A stretch of DNA of 64,000 nt from Spirosoma aureum (GTDB lineage: Bacteria; Bacteroidota; Bacteroidia; Cytophagales; Spirosomataceae), in assembly GCF_011604685.1 (NCBI RefSeq), contig NZ_CP050063.1, positions 378,501-442,500 on the forward strand. Reading direction: 5' to 3'. Shown one piece after another: positions 43,392 through 63,994 of this stretch; position 1 is the stretch's first letter, and each line of letters begins with the position of its first letter. The notes beneath the pieces are model-generated. The model searched no databases, was not told the DNA's origin, and saw nothing but the letters and a program-made list of their open reading frames with translations. Position numbers and translations under genes: made by a program.

Positions 43392-43489
43392 TTGAACTCT
43401 TTGCAATATTTAATTGTATATACATTAAATGTAACGACATTAATTTTCAAAAGTAAAAATTAGTTAACCAGTTAACCACGTTCAAATTC

Positions 43490-45621: not shown

Positions 45622-45637
45622 AGTTCCACGTGGAAAC
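45622..45637. other. parS-like ParB-binding palindrome
   Basis: The sequence agttccacgtggaaac holds a perfect 12-bp palindrome, ttccacgtggaa (45624-45635). It agrees with 13 of 16 positions of the known parS form tgttccacgtggaaca. It lies in the leader of the barstar-family gene. One of two such sites in the window. Confidence 0.55.
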
Positions 45638-55622: not shown

Positions 55623-55638
55623 GTTTCCACGTGAAACA
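55623..55638. other. parS-like ParB-binding palindrome before mnmG
   Basis: gtttccacgtgaaaca agrees with 14 of 16 positions of the parS consensus forms (one half like tgttccac, the other a perfect gtgaaaca). Outside it, tgaaaa and ttttca extend the symmetry. It is 20 bp before the mnmG start, a common place for parS near bacterial origins. Confidence 0.65.
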
Positions 55639-55658: not shown

Positions 55659-57518
55659 ATGTTTTCTTCTTACGATGTCATTGTAGTAGGGGCAGGGCAT
55701 GCCGGTTGTGAAGCAGCCAGTGCTGCTGCCACGATGGGTTCTAAGGTTCTGCTCATTACGATGAACATGCAGACTATTGCCCAGATGTCCTGCAACCCAG
55801 CCATGGGCGGAGTTGCAAAAGGACAAATTGTACGTGAAGTCGATGCGCTGGGTGGCTTGTCAGGAATCATAAGCGACAAAAGCATGATCCAATTTCGAAT
55901 GTTAAATCGTTCGAAAGGTCCTGCTATGTGGAGTCCAAGATGCCAGAGCGACCGAAATGTATTTGCCTCAGAGTGGCGAAAGGCACTGGAAGAAAACAGA
56001 AATATTGATTTCTGGCAGGATACAGTAAACGAAGTTCTTGTAAAAGATGGTCAGGTAACTGGCGTGAGAACTAGTTTGGGAGTGGATTTTCTTGCCAAAG
56101 CAGTTGTATTGACGAATGGCACATTCTTAAACGGGCGGATGTTTATCGGTGAAAAAGTTTTCGGTGGAGGACGAACAGCCGAGCGTTCTGCAACCGGTTT
56201 AACTGAGCAGCTGGTTAGTTTGGGTTTTGAATCGGGCCGGATGAAAACCGGAACTCCTCCCCGTGTAGACGGTCGGAGCCTAAACTATGCGTTGATGGAA
56301 GAACAATTGGGTGATGAAATGCCCGGTAAGTTTTCCTATACAAACACGCCCGCATTAACGAAACAGCGTAGTTGCTGGATCACGTATACGAATCAGGCAG
56401 TTCATGATGAACTCAAGACTGGTTTTGAAAAATCGCCCATGTTCACTGGTCGAATCAAAGGCCTTGGACCCCGTTATTGCCCTTCAGTGGAAGATAAAAT
56501 CAATCGGTTCGCTGACAAAGATCGGCATCAGATCTTCGTAGAACCAGAAGGTTGGGACACTGTCGAAGTGTATGTTAATGGATTTTCGACCTCATTGCCT
56601 GAAACCGTTCAGTATAACGCCTTACGAAAAATACCCGGATTTGAGAATGTTAGAATGTTCAGACCCGGCTACGCTGTGGAGTATGATTTCTTTCCACCAA
56701 CTCAGTTAAAGCCAACACTCGAGACTCAGCTGGTCAAAAATCTGTTCTTTGCTGGGCAGATTAATGGAACAACGGGCTATGAAGAGGCCGCCTGCCAGGG
56801 ACTGATGGCAGGTATCAATGCACACCGAAATACAAATGAAGAAGCTGAGTTTACAATCAAACGGTCGGAGGGTTATATTGGCGTCCTGATTGATGATCTG
56901 ATAACTAAAGGGACGGAAGAACCGTATCGGATGTTTACATCCCGAGCAGAATATCGGACCTTGTTACGTCAGGACAATGCCGATTTACGGCTCACTGAAA
57001 AGGGATACGCTATTGGCTTGGCATCGCAGGAACGGTATGAATCTATGGTTACCAAACGGGATGGGATCGCTCAGTTAACAGAAGCAATACGGAGAGCAAA
57101 GCTCAAACCCGAAGATGTAAATGGTTGGTTAGAGACAAAAGGAAGTTCGCCGTTGCGCGAAAAAAGCAGCCTGTATACCTTACTCAAGCGGCCAGAAATT
57201 GATCAGTCCGACGTAAAAGAACTGCTGAATCTCCTGCCAGAAACGCCTGGGGTAGGGGAGGAGACGATTGAGCAAACTGTTATTGAAATCAAGTACGAGG
57301 ACTATCTCAATCGGGAAAAACAGAACGCCGAAAAATTAGATAAATGGGAAAGTCTGGCAATTAATCCCACATTCGATTACGACCGCCTTAAAGCTTTATC
57401 GTTTGAGGGAAAGGAAAAATTGAAGCGACTTCGGCCAGCAACGATCGGTCAGGCATCCCGCATCAGCGGAGTAAGCCCTTCCGATGTTTCCATCCTTCTG
57501 GTCTATATGGGCCGTTAA
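55659..57518 (+). CDS. mnmG: tRNA uridine-5-carboxymethylaminomethyl modification enzyme MnmG (GidA)
   Basis: MnmG with MnmE modifies the wobble uridine of several tRNAs using FAD. The 619-residue protein has the FAD-binding VVGAGHAGCEAA at the N terminus, the CNPAMGGVAKG and KTGTPPRVDGRS segments, the GTEEPYRMFTSRAEYRTLLRQDNADLRL region and the C-terminal helical domain ending SGVSPSDVSILLVYMGR. Length and motifs are normal. The parS-like site directly upstream and the DnaA-box region 1 kb downstream match the old name gidA, given for its position beside oriC in other bacteria. Confidence 0.97.
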   Translation: MFSSYDVIVVGAGHAGCEAASAAATMGSKVLLITMNMQTIAQMSCNPAMGGVAKGQIVREVDALGGLSGIISDKSMIQFRMLNRSKGPAMWSPRCQSDRNVFASEWRKALEENRNIDFWQDTVNEVLVKDGQVTGVRTSLGVDFLAKAVVLTNGTFLNGRMFIGEKVFGGGRTAERSATGLTEQLVSLGFESGRMKTGTPPRVDGRSLNYALMEEQLGDEMPGKFSYTNTPALTKQRSCWITYTNQAVHDELKTGFEKSPMFTGRIKGLGPRYCPSVEDKINRFADKDRHQIFVEPEGWDTVEVYVNGFSTSLPETVQYNALRKIPGFENVRMFRPGYAVEYDFFPPTQLKPTLETQLVKNLFFAGQINGTTGYEEAACQGLMAGINAHRNTNEEAEFTIKRSEGYIGVLIDDLITKGTEEPYRMFTSRAEYRTLLRQDNADLRLTEKGYAIGLASQERYESMVTKRDGIAQLTEAIRRAKLKPEDVNGWLETKGSSPLREKSSLYTLLKRPEIDQSDVKELLNLLPETPGVGEETIEQTVIEIKYEDYLNREKQNAEKLDKWESLAINPTFDYDRLKALSFEGKEKLKRLRPATIGQASRISGVSPSDVSILLVYMGR

Positions 57519-57587: not shown

Positions 57588-58469
57588 TTGGAAACCGTCA
57601 ATTCATGCCCAGTCTGCGGCAGTACAAAATTTACTCCCTATTTAGTTTGTAAAGATTATTTAGTCAGCAATCAAAACTTCAACATCGAGCAATGTGAAAC
57701 GTGTGGTTTCCGATTGACCAACCCTCGACCCGATGAAAAAACGATTGGATCATATTATAAATCGGAGCAGTATGTATCACACAATGACGAGAGCAGTGGT
57801 GTGATTAATACGGCGTATCGGTTAGTTCGTAATTATACGCTTCGGTCAAAATTAAATCTTATCAATAAGCTTAATGGTGGGCCAGGACGAATTCTGGATG
57901 TAGGTTGTGGTACGGGTGCGTTCCTAGATACTAGTAAACAGGGAGGCTGGCAGGTGATGGGAATGGAACCAGATCCAGATGCCCGTGCTGTTGCTCAAAA
58001 AAAATTAGAAGCCGACATACAGCCTAATCTTAGGGCATTGGACGGAGCAACACCTTTTGACATAATTACCTTATGGCATGTGCTCGAGCATATTCCTGAC
58101 CTCAATGAAACAGTACCTCAACTGAATAAATTATTGAGTCCGAAGGGGACATTACTGATCGCCGTTCCCAATTCAGATTCTTATGATGCGCACTATTTTA
58201 AAGAATATTGGGCAGCCTATGATGTCCCTCGCCATTTACAGCATTTCACTCCGTCTACCATCAAGCTCTTATTTAAAAAGCATGGTCTGACGTGTATAGA
58301 GCAGAAGCCAATGGTTTTTGATGCTTTCTATATTGCGATGCTGAGCACCCGGTACATGACCGGTAAAACAGATTATCTGAAAAGTATGAGGGTAGGACTT
58401 ACCTCTAATCAACAAGCCAAACAAACTGGCAACTCATCCAGTTTAATCTATCTATTTAAGAAGGCCTGA
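57588..58469 (+). CDS. Class I SAM-dependent methyltransferase with N-terminal zinc ribbon
   Basis: The 293-residue protein begins with a zinc-ribbon-like CPVCGS...CETCGF (residues about 7-38), then RLTNPRP and the Rossmann-type methyltransferase with ILDVGCGTGAFLD, a later GMEPDPDARA, DIITLWHVLEHI and a GTLLIAVPN strand. This is the layout of common methyltransferase-domain-11 proteins in cell-envelope and sugar-modification clusters, but no target is seen. The only plausible start in frame is a TTG at 57588: an upstream stop bars an earlier one and the next ATG would cut the zinc ribbon. It ends right at the start of the oriC candidate. Confidence 0.87.
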   Translation: METVNSCPVCGSTKFTPYLVCKDYLVSNQNFNIEQCETCGFRLTNPRPDEKTIGSYYKSEQYVSHNDESSGVINTAYRLVRNYTLRSKLNLINKLNGGPGRILDVGCGTGAFLDTSKQGGWQVMGMEPDPDARAVAQKKLEADIQPNLRALDGATPFDIITLWHVLEHIPDLNETVPQLNKLLSPKGTLLIAVPNSDSYDAHYFKEYWAAYDVPRHLQHFTPSTIKLLFKKHGLTCIEQKPMVFDAFYIAMLSTRYMTGKTDYLKSMRVGLTSNQQAKQTGNSSSLIYLFKKA

Positions 58470-58954
58470 TAATTGCACTGATTCTAAGCAGTATGCCATT
58501 TTTTTCACTGACAGGTAAAGGTCAATTCTAAATTAAAAAAGTTAAAGTTTTATGTGAATAACCATGTGCATAACTCTGACTCACAAGTGGATAAATTGTT
58601 TATAAGGCATGAAAGTGATGTGGATGAATAACGTAGTAATCCACATCACTTTTTTTTGGGCCAGTTAATGTGGAGAAACAACTACATATCACGAATGAGC
58701 CCACACAATTTCCCCACTTAAAATTGTGTACAGAAATTATTCACAAATCCACATTCATATCGCACATAAAATGTGGATAAAATGTTATTTACCTAAAAAT
58801 AAGATGGTTATAAGTGGATAACTTTAAAACAGTAAGTGGATATGTTGCGGTTCTTATCCACATTCTGTATCTTCATCAGTGGACAACTTATTTGTACACA
58901 TTTCCACATAGCTAATGGTTATAATAACGTTTCTTTAAAAAGCTTTTATATAAA
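58470..58954. other. Candidate chromosomal replication origin (oriC)
   Basis: This 485-bp AT-rich gap has no plausible gene and is crowded with DnaA-box sequences. Perfect boxes are TGTGGATAA at 58772-58780 and TTATCCACA at 58854-58862. One-mismatch copies are at 58553-58561, 58565-58573, 58586-58594, 58619-58627, 58637-58645, 58669-58677, 58737-58745 and 58813-58821; further two-mismatch ones are at 58745, 58835, 58878 and 58900. The final 40 bp (58915-58954) are very A/T-rich and could be the unwinding element. Its position near mnmG and a parS-like site supports the assignment; the location of dnaA is not in the window. Confidence 0.85.
58612..58659. terminator. Terminator-like hairpin made of DnaA-box-like arms
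   Basis: Arms 58612-58625 and 58639-58652 (aaagtgatgtggat and its complement) are perfect over 14 bp with a 13-base loop and are followed by a T run. Each arm contains one DnaA-box-like element (TGTGGATGA at 58619 and TAATCCACA at 58637). It could end the methyltransferase transcript just inside the origin. Confidence 0.6.
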
Positions 58955-60763
58955 ATGTTAATAAGGTCAAAAGTCATTATTGCGCTGATGTGGCTGTTGT
59001 CAGCCGGACTCGCCTGGGGGCAGGGGGGAGCGACGTTGGCCGAAGAATATTTTAAAGCGGGCGAATTTGAAAAAGCCGCGAACGAATACGCGAAGCTGTT
59101 GAAAACCGATGTGACCTGGGTTCGCCTGGCACGCTATGTGAACAGCCTGCAAAAAAGTAACAAGGCAGAGGAGGCCGTAAAATATTTGCGCAAGCAGGAA
59201 CGCAGCGATGAACCCAACCGGGCATACTACCAATTGCTCATTGGGCAACTCGCCACCCAGCAGGGCGATACAGTTCTGGCGAGCAATCAATACACGGCCG
59301 CCTTACAATCCAGCAAATCGTCGACCAGTAAGCTTGAACGGATCGCCAGTGCCTTCAACGAAGCAGGAGAGCCCCGCTGGGCGGTCCGGGCGCTCGAAAT
59401 GGCCCGAGAGGTCAGCAAAGAGCCTACGGCCTACAGCGAGGATCTAATGGGCCTTTACAGGGCGACGGGGCAAACTGAAAAATCGATCAATGAAATTATA
59501 ACGACTGGCAAACAGCCCGATAAAAAAGAAACCGTATTGGCCGCATTACAAGGGTTTATCAACACAAAAGATGAGCCGCTTGTGGAAAAAGCGTTATACA
59601 GCAAAATACAACTGGAACCCAATGAACTTTCCTATAACGAATTATTGATCTGGTACTTTGTGCAGAAACAGAAATTCGGCAGGGCGTTGCTCCAGGAAAA
59701 AGCGACGGATAAACGCGTAAAATTGAACGGTAGCCGTGTTTATGACCTGGGAATGCTGGCAATGAACAACAAAGAATACAAAACAGCGGCCGAATCATTC
59801 GAATACATAACCACAACATATCCACAGGGCCAGCTCTATCCGTTCGCACGGCGGTTGGTTATTCAAGCCCGCGAAGAACAGGTAAAAAACACGTACCCTG
59901 TAGATAAGGTGGAAATCCGTAAGTTGATTGGTGATTATCAGAAAATGCTTCAGGAGATCGGGACAAATGTTAAAACACTTGAAGCGCTCCGGAGCACTGC
60001 CAATCTATACGGAAATTATCTCGACAGCAAAGACACCGCTCTAACGGTTCTGGATTTAGCCATTGAATTGGGGAAAACCGATAAGAATTTTGTGGATCGT
60101 TGTAAGCTCGACAAAGGGGATATCTACCTGCTGAAAGGTGAACCCTGGGAATCTACGCTGTTGTATTCTCAGGTTGAAAAATCTCAGAAAGAAGAATTGT
60201 TAGGTTATGAAGCCAAGCTTAAAAACGCAAAGCTTCACTATTATCGGGGAAATCTGGCTGTAGCTAAAGACATTTTGGATGTACTTAAACTGGCCACATC
60301 ACGGGAAATAGCCAATGATGCTGAACAGTTAAGTTTATTAATTGTGGATAACACGGGCATGGATAGTACCGAAGCTGCAATGCGGGAATATGCCGGGATC
60401 GACTTATTACTCTTCCAGAATAAAACTGATGAAGCCATTGAAGCGCTCAAAGAAATGTGGAAGAAGTATGCCGAACATCCACTGGCAGATGAAATTCTCT
60501 GGCTGCGGGCGAATACATACATGAAACAGGGTAAGAATACCGAAGCACTTGAAGACTTAAAAAAGATAACAGCCAGCTACCCAACTGATATTTTAGGGGA
60601 TGATGCCTTGTTTACGCAGGCGAAAATATATGAAGAGCGTCTCAAAGATAAGACAGCTGCCATGGAAGCCTATCAAAAAGTATTAACACAGTATCCAGGG
60701 AGTATCTATGGAGCCGAGTCACGTAAGCGGTTCAGAGCCTTACGAGGTGATACCGTTAACTGA
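58955..60763 (+). CDS. Exported tetratricopeptide-repeat protein
   Basis: The 602-residue protein has a signal peptide (MLIRSKVIIALMWLLSAGLAWG) and many TPR-like helical repeats, for instance AEEYFKAGEFEKAANEYAKLLK near the N terminus, KTAAESFEYITTTYPQGQLYPFA and DDALFTQAKIYEERLKDKTAAMEAYQKVLTQYPGS near the end. Function is unknown; by composition it may help envelope assembly. The gene starts directly at the right edge of the oriC candidate, so its promoter lies among DnaA boxes. Confidence 0.85.
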   Translation: MLIRSKVIIALMWLLSAGLAWGQGGATLAEEYFKAGEFEKAANEYAKLLKTDVTWVRLARYVNSLQKSNKAEEAVKYLRKQERSDEPNRAYYQLLIGQLATQQGDTVLASNQYTAALQSSKSSTSKLERIASAFNEAGEPRWAVRALEMAREVSKEPTAYSEDLMGLYRATGQTEKSINEIITTGKQPDKKETVLAALQGFINTKDEPLVEKALYSKIQLEPNELSYNELLIWYFVQKQKFGRALLQEKATDKRVKLNGSRVYDLGMLAMNNKEYKTAAESFEYITTTYPQGQLYPFARRLVIQAREEQVKNTYPVDKVEIRKLIGDYQKMLQEIGTNVKTLEALRSTANLYGNYLDSKDTALTVLDLAIELGKTDKNFVDRCKLDKGDIYLLKGEPWESTLLYSQVEKSQKEELLGYEAKLKNAKLHYYRGNLAVAKDILDVLKLATSREIANDAEQLSLLIVDNTGMDSTEAAMREYAGIDLLLFQNKTDEAIEALKEMWKKYAEHPLADEILWLRANTYMKQGKNTEALEDLKKITASYPTDILGDDALFTQAKIYEERLKDKTAAMEAYQKVLTQYPGSIYGAESRKRFRALRGDTVN

Positions 60764-60840
60764 GTTCTCTAAAAGTTATCCACAAAAAAGGCCCCAAATA
60801 CACAATTTGGGGCCTTTTTTGTGGATAACTTTTAGAGAAC
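60764..60840. terminator. Perfect 36-bp inverted repeat with a DnaA box in each arm
   Basis: Arms 60764-60799 and 60805-60840 are perfect complements over 36 bp around a 5-base loop (acaca). The inner part (aaaaaaggccccaaat and its complement) is a bidirectional terminator. Perfect DnaA boxes are embedded: TTATCCACA at 60776-60784 and TGTGGATAA at 60820-60828. The left arm begins right after the TPR stop, and the right arm covers the thrC stop codon and the codons before it. Confidence 0.9.
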
Positions 60841-62142
60841 TGTATGGAGCAAAGACTCTTTAAATGCCTCGTATTGAGCAGGAATTCGAATGCTTATTTT
60901 AGATCGGCTGGCTAAACTGGCCAGTCTGTCAGGGACATGAACAGATTGGCCCAGTACATCTTCAACTAAGGGCTTAAATTTTGACGGATGGGCCGTAGCT
61001 AATGCAACACCCGTATAATCGATATTCCTGTCGAGCAGGTATTGTTGTAAGCCCAAAATGCCAATGGCGGTGTGAGGACAGGCGATATAGCCAAATTGGT
61101 CATAGATACGTTTCATCCCCACTCGTGTTTCGTCATCATCATAGAAATAGCCTGAAACATTTTCTTTGAAATGATCAAAATCATTACCGTAGAGATGAGC
61201 TAAACGAACAAAGTTGCTTGGACTCCCCACATCCATCGCATTCGAGATCGTCGCAATAGAGGCTTTAGGCGTATACACTCCCGTTTTTATGTAAGACGGC
61301 ACTACATGATTTAGGTTAGTTGCTGCCACAAAATGAGCAACAGGCAAGCCCATTTGTTGAACCATGGCACCAGCGCTAAGATTACCGAAATTTCCACTGG
61401 GCGTTGAAAAAACAACGGGTTTCCCCCATTTGCGTACCTGGCCGTATGCCCGAACGTAATAAAACCCCTGCGGAATCAACCGAAAAATATTGATCGAATT
61501 CGCAGAGGATAGGGATAAATGAGCGTTTAGCTCCGTATCGACAAAGGCTTGTTTCACGATAGCCTGACAATCGTCGAAAGACCCATCTACTTCAAATGCC
61601 TGAACATTTCCACCAAGCGTTGTTAATTGTTTTTCCTGAAGATCGCTAACTCGGCCAGAAGGATATAAGATTGAGACACGAACGCCAGGAACATTGTGGA
61701 AGCCCATAGCAACAGCTCCGCCCGTATCACCCGAAGTAGCTACCAAAATATTAACTTCTTTATCGTTACGGCCTGAATAATAAGACATTAAAGCCGCCAT
61801 ATAACGAGCTCCAACATCTTTAAAGGCCAGCGATGGACCGTGAAACAACTCAAGAACACTGGTTTTTCCTGGCTCCAGATCAACAACTGGTGTATCGAAT
61901 GGAAAAGCCTGATGCGTAAGGTTTTCCAGATCAGCCGTACTTATTTCATCACTAAAGAGTGCTTTACTGATCTCAAATCCAATATCTGCTAAAGACTGTC
62001 CAGCAATTTTTTCGAAAAAGTCAGTGCCTAAATGAGGTAAAGGAGTTGGCATATACAGTCCTTTATCAGCAGGTAGGCTGTGAAAAAGGGCTTCCTCAAC
62101 AGAAACAGTATTCTGAGGATTGTTGGTGCTATAAAAACGCAT
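60832..62142 (-). CDS. thrC: Threonine synthase
   Basis: ThrC makes threonine from O-phosphohomoserine with PLP. The protein is 436 residues from the ATG at 62142 (the frame runs 12 bp further to a TTG). It has the PLP lysine in HGPSLAFKDVGARYMAAL (about Lys108), the phosphate-binding ATSGDTGGAVAMGF and SANSINIFRLIPQ segments, and the C-terminal ATAHPSKF strand. It is of the long bacterial threonine-synthase type. It is convergent with the TPR gene; its last codons lie inside the 36-bp inverted repeat. Confidence 0.96.
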   Translation of the reverse strand: MRFYSTNNPQNTVSVEEALFHSLPADKGLYMPTPLPHLGTDFFEKIAGQSLADIGFEISKALFSDEISTADLENLTHQAFPFDTPVVDLEPGKTSVLELFHGPSLAFKDVGARYMAALMSYYSGRNDKEVNILVATSGDTGGAVAMGFHNVPGVRVSILYPSGRVSDLQEKQLTTLGGNVQAFEVDGSFDDCQAIVKQAFVDTELNAHLSLSSANSINIFRLIPQGFYYVRAYGQVRKWGKPVVFSTPSGNFGNLSAGAMVQQMGLPVAHFVAATNLNHVVPSYIKTGVYTPKASIATISNAMDVGSPSNFVRLAHLYGNDFDHFKENVSGYFYDDDETRVGMKRIYDQFGYIACPHTAIGILGLQQYLLDRNIDYTGVALATAHPSKFKPLVEDVLGQSVHVPDRLASLASRSKISIRIPAQYEAFKESLLHTVL

Positions 62143-62212
62143 ATGAAAAGGCAAAATAAGGCTACAAAGTACGGTAAATCAGTTCAATGAATCGAGTTTA
62201 AGTCATTGAAAA

Positions 62213-62242
62213 TGTGGAAAAGTAATGTGGATTAGTGGATAA
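62213..62242. promoter_or_regulatory. Cluster of three DnaA-box-like elements upstream of pruA
   Basis: Within 30 bp lie TGTGGAAAA (62213-62221), TGTGGATTA (62226-62234) and AGTGGATAA (62234-62242), each one mismatch from a DnaA box and all in the same orientation. They lie between the divergent thrC and pruA genes, 14 bp before a TACCTTTA element that resembles a -7 box. They could tie pruA or thrC expression to DnaA or be an outlying part of the origin. Confidence 0.5.
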
Positions 62243-62255
62243 GTAGGGCAATACG

Positions 62256-62263
62256 TACCTTTA
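62256..62263 (+). promoter_or_regulatory. Possible -7 box for pruA
   Basis: TACCTTTA differs from TAnnTTTG in the last base only. It lies about 100 bp before the pruA ATG and just after the DnaA-box cluster. Confidence 0.3.
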
Positions 62264-62362
62264 CAGACCAATAAACTTCACAACAGAAAAGAGTCGAAAT
62301 AGTCAAAGTGCAGAATGATATTTGCAAAAAACTACAAAACGTCTCGTAATCAGCAATTAATT

Positions 62363-63994
62363 ATGTCATTTGGATTATTCAACGTTCCAACGCCGGTTAA
62401 TGAGCCGGTAAAAGAGTATCGTCCTGGTTCTCCAGAGCGCGAAGCAGTAAAAAAAGCTTTGCAGGATTTTCGATCGGTAGAAACAGACATTCCTATGTAT
62501 ATCGGTGGCCAGGAGGTTCGCACAGACCGTAAAATCCGGGTCGCACCCCCTCACGATCATCAGCATACACTCGGCTATTTTCATGAAGGCGATGCTCAAC
62601 ATGTTGAACAGGCAATTGAAGCCGCATTAGCCGCAAAAGATAATTGGGCGAATTTATCCTGGGAGCACCGGGCCAGCATTTTCCTAAAAGCGGCTGATCT
62701 ACTCGCTGGACCATATCGGGCACGAATAAATGCTGCAACAATGCTTGGTCAGTCGAAAAACGCTTTTCAGGCAGAAATCGACTCTGCATGTGAGCTGATC
62801 GATTTTCTGCGATTCAATGTCCATTATGCAACGGATATCTACCGGCAGCAACCAAACTCTTCGCCGGGCGTCTGGAATCGACTTGAGTACCGTCCCCTCG
62901 AAGGATTCGTTTTTGCCCTGACTCCCTTCAATTTTACCGCTATTGCCGGTAATCTACCCACATCGGCCGCAATGATGGGAAACACAGTCGTTTGGAAACC
63001 AGCCTATACGCAGGTTTTATCGGCTAAAGTCATTATGGAGGTGTTACTGGAGGCAGGTTTACCTGATGGCGTCATAAATCTGATTTATGTAGATGGTCCG
63101 GTGGCTGGCGATAAAATTTTCAACCATCCCGATTTTGCAGGCATACACTTTACAGGTAGTACAGGCGTATTTCAAGCGATTTGGGGTACAATTGGCGCGA
63201 ACATACACAAGTACAATTCATATCCGCGAATTGTTGGTGAAACAGGAGGGAAAGACTTCGTGCTTGTGCATGAATCCGCAGATGCCGATGAAGTAGCTAC
63301 TGGTCTTGTACGTGGAGCATTTGAATATCAGGGACAAAAATGCTCAGCTGCATCACGCGCCTATGTTCCATCATCGCTTTGGCCGGCTATCGAAACCAAA
63401 GTAAAAGAGTTTCTGAGCGAGATAAAGATGGGCGCAACTGAAGACTTTACCAACTTCATTAACGCTGTCATTGATGAACGATCCTTTAAAAAGATCAAAG
63501 CTTATATCGATGCCGCTAAACAGAGTGATCAGGTAAAAATCGTGGCAGGAGGGAACTACGACGGTTCTAAGGGGTATTTTATCGAGCCAACCGTGCTTCA
63601 GGTAAATGATCCGAACTATAGAACAATGTGCGAAGAGATATTCGGGCCGGTATTATCAGTTTATGTGTATGAACCATCGGAGTTCGAATCGATACTACAG
63701 ATTGTGAACAGTACCTCACCTTATGCGTTGACAGGATCTATTTTTGCGAAGGATCGATATGTGATCGAACATACTTCGAAAGTACTCCAGAATGCCGCCG
63801 GTAATTTTTATATTAACGATAAACCTACCGGAGCAGTAGTAGGACAACAGCCATTTGGGGGAGCGCGAGCGTCGGGAACGAACGATAAAGCGGGATCAGC
63901 TTTAAATTTATATCGCTGGGTTTCGGCACGTACAATTAAGGAAACCTACGTGACTCCCAGGCACTTCGCTTATCCATTCCTACAGGCCGACTAA
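62363..63994 (+). CDS. pruA: L-glutamate gamma-semialdehyde (1-pyrroline-5-carboxylate) dehydrogenase
   Basis: PruA oxidises glutamate semialdehyde to glutamate with NAD, the second step of proline breakdown. The protein is 543 residues from the ATG at 62363; an in-frame start 48 bp earlier is less likely. It has the aldehyde-dehydrogenase fold: TPFNFTAIAGNLPT, FTGSTGVF, the catalytic glutamate in VGETGGKDFVLV, the catalytic cysteine in EYQGQKCSAASRAYVP, and the C-terminal GGARASGTNDKAGS. Length and layout match stand-alone P5C dehydrogenases. The gene ends 6 bp before the window ends. Confidence 0.95.
   Translation: MSFGLFNVPTPVNEPVKEYRPGSPEREAVKKALQDFRSVETDIPMYIGGQEVRTDRKIRVAPPHDHQHTLGYFHEGDAQHVEQAIEAALAAKDNWANLSWEHRASIFLKAADLLAGPYRARINAATMLGQSKNAFQAEIDSACELIDFLRFNVHYATDIYRQQPNSSPGVWNRLEYRPLEGFVFALTPFNFTAIAGNLPTSAAMMGNTVVWKPAYTQVLSAKVIMEVLLEAGLPDGVINLIYVDGPVAGDKIFNHPDFAGIHFTGSTGVFQAIWGTIGANIHKYNSYPRIVGETGGKDFVLVHESADADEVATGLVRGAFEYQGQKCSAASRAYVPSSLWPAIETKVKEFLSEIKMGATEDFTNFINAVIDERSFKKIKAYIDAAKQSDQVKIVAGGNYDGSKGYFIEPTVLQVNDPNYRTMCEEIFGPVLSVYVYEPSEFESILQIVNSTSPYALTGSIFAKDRYVIEHTSKVLQNAAGNFYINDKPTGAVVGQQPFGGARASGTNDKAGSALNLYRWVSARTIKETYVTPRHFAYPFLQAD

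Follow-up and report, generated by a model that had tools for sequence, protein, structure and literature searches.

The genome of Spirosoma aureum is a single contig (C1) of 8,898,242 bp, of which we analysed one 64-kb window (C1:378,501-442,500; positions below 64,000 are those of the window). Within it, a 485-bp gap lies exactly between a methyltransferase ORF, which stops at 58469, and an ORF for a TPR-repeat protein, which begins at 58955. On the left, 0.95 kb separates the gap from the end of mnmG; on the right, thrC converges on the TPR gene. The features of the region are as follows.

45624-45635, no strand: second palindrome with the parS core, TTCCACGTGGAA, intergenic, 13 kb left of the gap
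55623-55638, plus strand: parS-like site upstream of mnmG (motif scan), degenerate here, with a CACGTG conserved in relatives
55659-57518, plus strand: mnmG (gidA), the conserved left neighbour by homology and synteny
58470-58954, no strand: candidate core oriC, AT-rich intergenic DNA with ten DnaA boxes of at most one mismatch (boxes, shuffles, conservation)
58519-58539, plus strand: left-edge element AGGTCAATNNNAAATWAAAAA, at the start of an AT-rich stretch
58553-58573, minus strand: two DnaA boxes 12 bp apart, pointing left, which lie at +34 and +46 relative to the left-edge element (box scan, alignment)
58612-58652, no strand: inverted repeat whose arms (19 nt, 89% complementary) resemble DnaA boxes, then a T run (repeat search)
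58772-58862, no strand: three boxes 41 bp apart (58772 minus, 58813 minus, 58854 plus), the outer two perfect
58892-58908, plus strand: tandem boxes TTGTACACA and ATTTCCACA, two mismatches each, one base in common; one of the best-conserved blocks in the gap
58913-58962, plus strand: putative DNA-unwinding element with TAA repeats partly in 3-nt register (DnaA-trio-like; stability, relatives)
58955-60763, plus strand: TPR-repeat gene with five intragenic boxes (59556, 59581, 59818, 59899 and 60343; box scan)
60763-60841, no strand: 37-nt perfect inverted repeat between the convergent TPR and thrC genes; both arms contain a perfect DnaA box; terminator-like (repeat and terminator scans)
62213-62242, minus strand: three one-mismatch boxes upstream of thrC, their starts 13 and 8 bp apart (box scan)

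DnaA boxes within and beyond the gap

The gap has a GC content of 31.3% compared with 46.4% for the window, and the longest ORF within it is 41 aa, in line with its initial annotation as AT-rich and lacking any plausible ORF. Counting perfect and one-mismatch copies of the DnaA box consensus TTATCCACA, we found two perfect boxes, at 58772-58780 (minus strand) and 58854-58862 (plus strand), and eight with one mismatch, at 58553, 58565, 58586, 58619, 58637, 58669, 58737 and 58813; two perfect and about eight near-perfect boxes had been noted before. Dinucleotide shuffles of the gap (n = 5000) contain 0.26 boxes on average and four at most, against the ten observed. The genome-wide rate for boxes with at most one mismatch, 2171 in 8.898 Mb, corresponds to 0.118 expected per 485 bp, giving a Poisson probability for ten boxes of 1.3e-16, or 1.2e-9 once multiplied by all positions. 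By both measures the gap holds a DnaA-box cluster of the kind expected of an oriC, with a density beyond chance as originally proposed. The inverted repeat at 58612-58652 is possibly the terminator of the mnmG-methyltransferase unit; our terminator scan did not call it.

Boxes are also frequent in the genes to the right. The TPR coding sequences of 21 genomes contain 71 boxes compared with 27.9 (sd 4.3) after synonymous-codon shuffling (perfect boxes, 27 versus 3.0), and the thrC coding sequences of 19 genomes contain 41 versus 10.3 (sd 2.9; perfect, 8 versus 0.5), counts that are not independent as the genomes are related. The observed and shuffled values for control coding sequences are 12 and 7.8 for mnmG, 11 and 9.8 for DUF4175, 3 and 3.2 for the methyltransferase, and 11 and 6.9 for P5CDH. 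Given the excess in TPR and thrC relative to these control genes, the intragenic boxes of the 21-genome set extend rightward and not leftward. When 48 named loci are divided by genus, the TPR excess is strong in the Spirosoma-like set and weak in Dyadobacter (26 versus 13.2 shuffled; thrC, 3 versus 8.2). Boxes in P5CDH are also raised in the Spirosoma-like set (24 versus 5.7 shuffled), so the excess is not limited to TPR and thrC. The small excess in Dyadobacter rules out intragenic boxes as a general feature. We infer that the TPR excess arises in part from amino acids that favour boxes and in part from codon choice. A literature search directed at boxes within coding sequences found no precedent for them among the matches listed.

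The spacing of 13 and 8 bp upstream of thrC recurs in three of 20 relatives (L093, L095 and L096). The perfect inverted box pair that follows the TPR gene is also present in L092 and L093, where the spacing is 43 bp compared with 44 bp here.

Conservation of the cluster and its parts

Two sets of relatives, which overlap partly and whose members are not independent, were compared. The named set is the best 80 of 545 relatives from the TPR alignment, of which 79 have upstream sequence (L211 was dropped); the family set comprises 58 genomes with mnmG, from which 20 were chosen for further reading. The closest named relative by TPR protein is Spirosoma profusum (87%; among the best 80 of 545, the host itself possibly being excluded). 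The rRNA genes (23S and 5S read; L049) lie on the plus strand about 7.5 kb to the right of the gap and are directed away from it, and rRNA genes are perhaps the reason that several relatives' draft contigs stop soon after P5CDH.

In all 20 family genomes the 500-bp window with the most boxes (4 to 17) starts just before the TPR gene. Among the best 80 of 545 relatives, the 700 bp upstream of the TPR match contains at least three boxes in 79 of 79 named loci and at least five in 73, with a mean of 9.9, and in 71 of the 79 no other window of the locus, TPR-thrC aside, has as many. Eight named loci, mostly Emticicia and relatives with one Siphonobacter, have a rival window with equal or more boxes (L141, L185, L186, L188, L190, L196, L197 and L200). 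One relative (L109, from G001) has a 19-kb mnmG-TPR locus with 41 widely scattered boxes, 17 of them perfect. In eight of 30 loci the 1.5 kb beyond mnmG contains no box; five of these were extended (G005, G008 and G032 were left out), and the cluster was found past an inserted 2 kb. The cluster remains with the TPR gene in genomes that have some 2 kb of additional sequence after the methyltransferase gene, and in G048 the GC skew still switches at the cluster.

It is conceivable that the boxes serve as promoter or terminator control of the TPR gene and are unrelated to replication, as they lie directly before its start and in hairpins, one of which is terminator-like. However, of 101 genomes from other families that have a TPR match (some of the distant TPR genes are perhaps not orthologs), 20 were chosen, and 19 of these have zero or one box in the 800 bp upstream of TPR; the exception, G108, belongs to the same order and has four. 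The TPR genes of these 20 genomes contain eight boxes in total, compared with the 71 of the 21 family genomes. Such control would also leave the skew switch described below unexplained, and we regard this explanation as highly improbable. With 19 of 20 other-family genomes lacking a cluster, a universal link between the TPR gene and the origin across the phylum is rejected, and it follows that the cluster goes with the origin of this lineage and not with the TPR gene as such.

The anatomy of the gap was determined from an alignment of ten gaps, our own included, read together with the positions of boxes with at most one mismatch. On the minus strand, the first two boxes from the left are spaced 12 bp apart in eight of the ten, and the 41 + 41 bp spacing is present in four (our own, L092, L093 and L094). 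The layout at the right end is strongly conserved, with the tandem boxes followed by four bases and then TAA or TAG. The four-base spacer is TAGC here and is often G/C-rich among relatives.

We estimated duplex stability across the 64-kb window in 50-bp stretches using nearest-neighbour energies. The least stable stretch starts at 58913 (-1.040), narrowly ahead of one outside the gap at 43405 (-1.042), and stretches starting at 58777 and 58515, both within the gap, rank third and ninth. An AT-rich, easily melted element therefore lies beside the boxes, in near tie with 43405. Within 24 bases past the last TCCACA, in-register TAA/TAG occurs 164 times compared with 107.8 in shuffles (sd 5.4, maximum 121), a count over 75 of 80 sequences that leaves out the five with no TCCACA in the interval and in which the anchor is misplaced in a few. 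There is no such excess after 358 other boxes (0.81 versus 0.77 per site), whose windows are less AT-rich. The run in our own gap is imperfect (TAA TGG TTA TAA TAA), with three of five in register.

The rule for the basal unwinding system (BUS), as given in the cited parts of PMC8287927, specifies a box with at most two mismatches, a spacer of 0-16 bp and at least three NAN trios. A match to it lies at 58900, with ATTTCCACA, a spacer of 11 and TATAATAAC, in another register than our TAA run. This is the only plus-strand reading in the gap. The opposite strand yields another five, and the rule is consequently loose; it is easily matched in AT-rich DNA. Applied to the left box pair, it returned no trio-like run.

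At the opposite end, the left-edge element at 58519 reads AGGTCAATTCTAAATTAAAAA, and the genome contains no second copy within one mismatch. Of 61 family genomes, 22 have AGGTCAATNNNAAATWAAAAA with at most one mismatch, at 23 places. All 14 exact matches lie within 5 kb downstream of mnmG; seven of these 14 genomes came from the alignment that defined the pattern and others were already among the named loci, whereas G027 and G049 were new to the comparison. Two of the nine one-mismatch matches (G004 and G039) are also just downstream of mnmG. The reversed AGGTCAATNNNAAATWAAAAA gave seven matches across the same 61 genomes. With at most one mismatch the pattern is absent from 39 of the 61, including one of the same genus.

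Among the named sequences (the best 80 of 545), 32 of 80, our own included, have a relaxed form, AGGTC[AT]A[AT], between -436 and -505 relative to the TPR match. The genera include Spirosoma, Fibrisoma, Fibrella, Larkinella, Rudanella, Arsenicibacter, Emticicia, Rhodocytophaga and Xanthocytophaga, the last with a copy that has no A-rich half. The motif was not found at that position in Dyadobacter, Runella or Arcicella of the named set. The match to TGTGGATAA peaks at +34 and +46 of the motif, with means of 6.6 and 6.4 of nine bases, compared with 3.0 and 2.3 at the same distances from 46 copies of the relaxed motif found elsewhere. We know of no protein for this site, and our literature search, which was not directed at its sequence, returned no precedent for the element.

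These observations suggest, tentatively and at somewhat under even odds, that Spirosoma and several related genera share a two-ended origin design, and that TPR and thrC were recruited in the same lineages to carry intragenic DnaA boxes. On the right would be an unwinding end of the trio type. On the left, about 330 bp away, would be a mirror-facing pair of boxes, set beside AGGTCAATNNNAAATWAAAAA at a distance exact to the base pair; this element, usually present once per genome, may be bound by some origin protein or may be a second unwinding site.

Chromosome-wide skew, dnaA and putative segregation sites

GC skew was sampled in 58 stretches plus the window, about 14% of the 8.9-Mb chromosome. 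It is positive in 29 of 30 stretches to the right of the gap (0.44 to 4.69 Mb) and negative in 26 of 28 to the left (4.89 to 0.38 Mb, through the contig ends), leaving three of the 58 with the wrong sign. The minimum of the cumulative skew, calculated over a contiguous piece from 222 to 662 kb, is at C1:421,120, which is 16 kb (0.18% of the chromosome) to the left of the gap. The opposite switch lies between 4.69 and 4.89 Mb, and the antipode of the gap is at 4.886 Mb. Within the sampled 14%, the chromosome thus has one skew switch at the locus, with the minimum 16 kb off, and a single one opposite. Two relatives with single contigs were sampled in ten 20-kb stretches each: the skew is negative in five of five stretches before the locus and positive in five of five after it both in G048 and in G004, where one value is just +0.001.

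The whole genome contains 80 perfect DnaA boxes. The densest 2.1 kb holds five (437,272-439,328), and no 2.1 kb elsewhere in the genome holds more than two. For one-mismatch clusters we covered 1.22 Mb of the genome (the 58 stretches, and the window outside 58470-62400), where the densest 485 bp contains three boxes. No rival cluster was therefore found among perfect boxes genome-wide or among one-mismatch boxes within the 1.22 Mb sampled. The skew minimum and competing clusters were two of the checks proposed with the initial annotation, and both results are favourable to it.

We rejected an enrichment of perfect boxes in the origin-proximal half of the chromosome (51 of 75 outside the origin, compared with 28 of 49 for a reversed control; Fisher p = 0.25). 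Five further inverted pairs of perfect boxes occur at C1:158490, 561614, 954953, 1505401 and 7567265, with starts 16-25 bp apart, more than we estimate would be expected by chance from 80 boxes. The three that were examined sit within longer palindromes. These pairs are possibly terminators or DnaA control sites.

An origin beside dnaA is a common arrangement outside Bacteroidota, and an origin adjoining dnaA would here lie at C1:1.592 Mb. However, dnaA (C1:1,592,258) is 1.155 Mb from the gap, the skew is positive on both sides of it (+0.039 in L008 and +0.038 in L009), and there is no perfect box in the region around it from 1,555,819 to 1,794,880. We consider such an origin extremely unlikely. 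The distance accords with the expectation, stated in the initial annotation, that the origin in Bacteroidota is often not near dnaA, and with the cited portions of PMC4755523.

The E. coli sites datA and DARS titrate or regulate DnaA, and the gap could likewise be a titration or regulatory site close to a true origin elsewhere in 421-437 kb. The skew minimum at 421,120 would fit this explanation, as would the extent of the boxes, which cover 3.7 kb and enter genes, beyond what unwinding needs. However, there is no other box cluster from 415 to 437 kb, and the gap has an end of the unwinding type, with very unstable DNA and a box-spacer-TAA layout that recurs in relatives. The cluster also keeps its place by the TPR gene despite the insertion of about 2 kb, together with the skew switch of G048. 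By a weak yardstick of our own, a datA-like cluster would lie away from the skew switch, whereas this one is within 16 kb of the minimum. We judge a titration site to be improbable, if somewhat less so than control of the TPR gene or an origin at dnaA.

The initial annotation also placed mnmG and a parS-like site about 1-3 kb away, and the distances are 0.95 kb for mnmG and 2.8 kb for the site at 55623, both to the left. As a match to the canonical 16-mer the site is weak alone, having three mismatches, which 25 of 100 shuffles equal. The parS-core pattern TTYCACGTGRAA occurs three times in the genome (424,124, 434,125 and 3,036,290) and its reversed control not at all; two of the three sites, both intergenic, precede the gap by 13 and 3 kb (within 13.1 kb). 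In 74 of 77 named loci (from the best 80 of 545 relatives) a CACGTG hexamer stands no more than 180 bp before mnmG, and L206, L207 and L208 have the exact canonical parS 16-mer there. Canonical parS with at most two mismatches is absent near the origin; the sole match in the genome, at 4.14 Mb, is a palindrome without the CACGTG core. A ParB gene is present at 7.98 Mb. A ParABS system, with sites near the origin and an encoded ParB, is thus indicated by the CACGTG core and not by the two-mismatch 16-mer rule. In the cited portions of a study of gut bacteria, origins were placed by parS clusters and GC skew, and caution was urged over dnaA (PMC10197239).

The box cluster, the skew switches at and opposite the locus and the conservation among relatives all agree with the candidate origin of the initial annotation. 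From these computed signals, together with the low stability, the trio-like register among relatives and the placement of parS, we predict with a probability of roughly 0.94 that the gap at 58470-58954 is the single chromosomal oriC, remote from dnaA. In the mechanism that we propose, DnaA would occupy the box array of the gap, and a filament would extend from the right-pointing tandem boxes (58892-58908) onto the trio-like strand. This filament would melt the AT-rich stretch at 58913-58962, as far as the TPR start codon, where helicase would be loaded and from which two forks would depart toward the terminus at 4.7-4.9 Mb. The extra boxes to the right (in the TPR gene, the TPR/thrC hairpin and thrC) probably hold or titrate DnaA. 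Segregation of the new origins would fall to ParB at the two leftward parS sites (3 and 13 kb).

Relation to known origins

Origins in Bacteroidota cannot be found by way of dnaA, and here a predicted one is pinned to a few hundred base pairs. Its neighbours, the TPR gene on one side and mnmG preceded by a parS-like site on the other, would be a usable marker of the origin in Spirosoma and many related genera. The comparison also gives defined targets for experiment, namely the trio-like end, the left-edge element and the intragenic boxes, so that initiation can be tested directly in a phylum that has been little studied.

The oriC of E. coli has its boxes beside an unwinding element, and its right-hand genes and sequence layout differ from those of the gap. 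A flanking gidA/mnmG is common to both, going by the cited description of E. coli (PMC4446571). The BUS of Bacillus subtilis and others is described in the cited parts of PMC8287927 as tandem boxes and a short spacer, with a trinucleotide repeat leading into the melted stretch. Tandem boxes and a short spacer are also found here, followed by a trio-like run that is imperfect in this genome. In contrast to the BUS, the gap has at its other end another box pair, which faces outward and is accompanied by a conserved element that is not a box, and to our knowledge this combination has no counterpart.

Prevotella intermedia belongs to another order than Spirosoma. Its predicted oriC has, in common with the gap, a skew transition, several DnaA boxes and a distant dnaA, an arrangement that the cited portions of PMC4755523, based on DoriC, extend to other Bacteroidetes as common in the phylum. 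None of the matches listed in our literature search concerned, by title, the origin of Spirosoma or Dyadobacter. DoriC presumably holds predictions for some of the genomes compared here.

The closest precedents are in Flavobacteriaceae. For Mariniflexile and Algorimicrobium, Ori-Finder 2022 and GC skew put oriC at mnmG, and in Mariniflexile the position of dnaA disagreed with the skew, according to the cited portions of PMC11278836 and PMC12843772; a figure legend in PMC11278836 marks mnmG as ter, against its own text. The origin is by mnmG in both cases. However, the cited portions of those reports give position alone, whereas here the predicted origin lies 1-4 kb beyond mnmG, by the TPR gene, and the comparison tells its parts from one another. 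Given these predecessors (PMC4755523, PMC11278836, PMC12843772), as far as they are cited here, the gap is best seen as an unusually well supported addition to the known origins that are remote from dnaA and at the side of mnmG.
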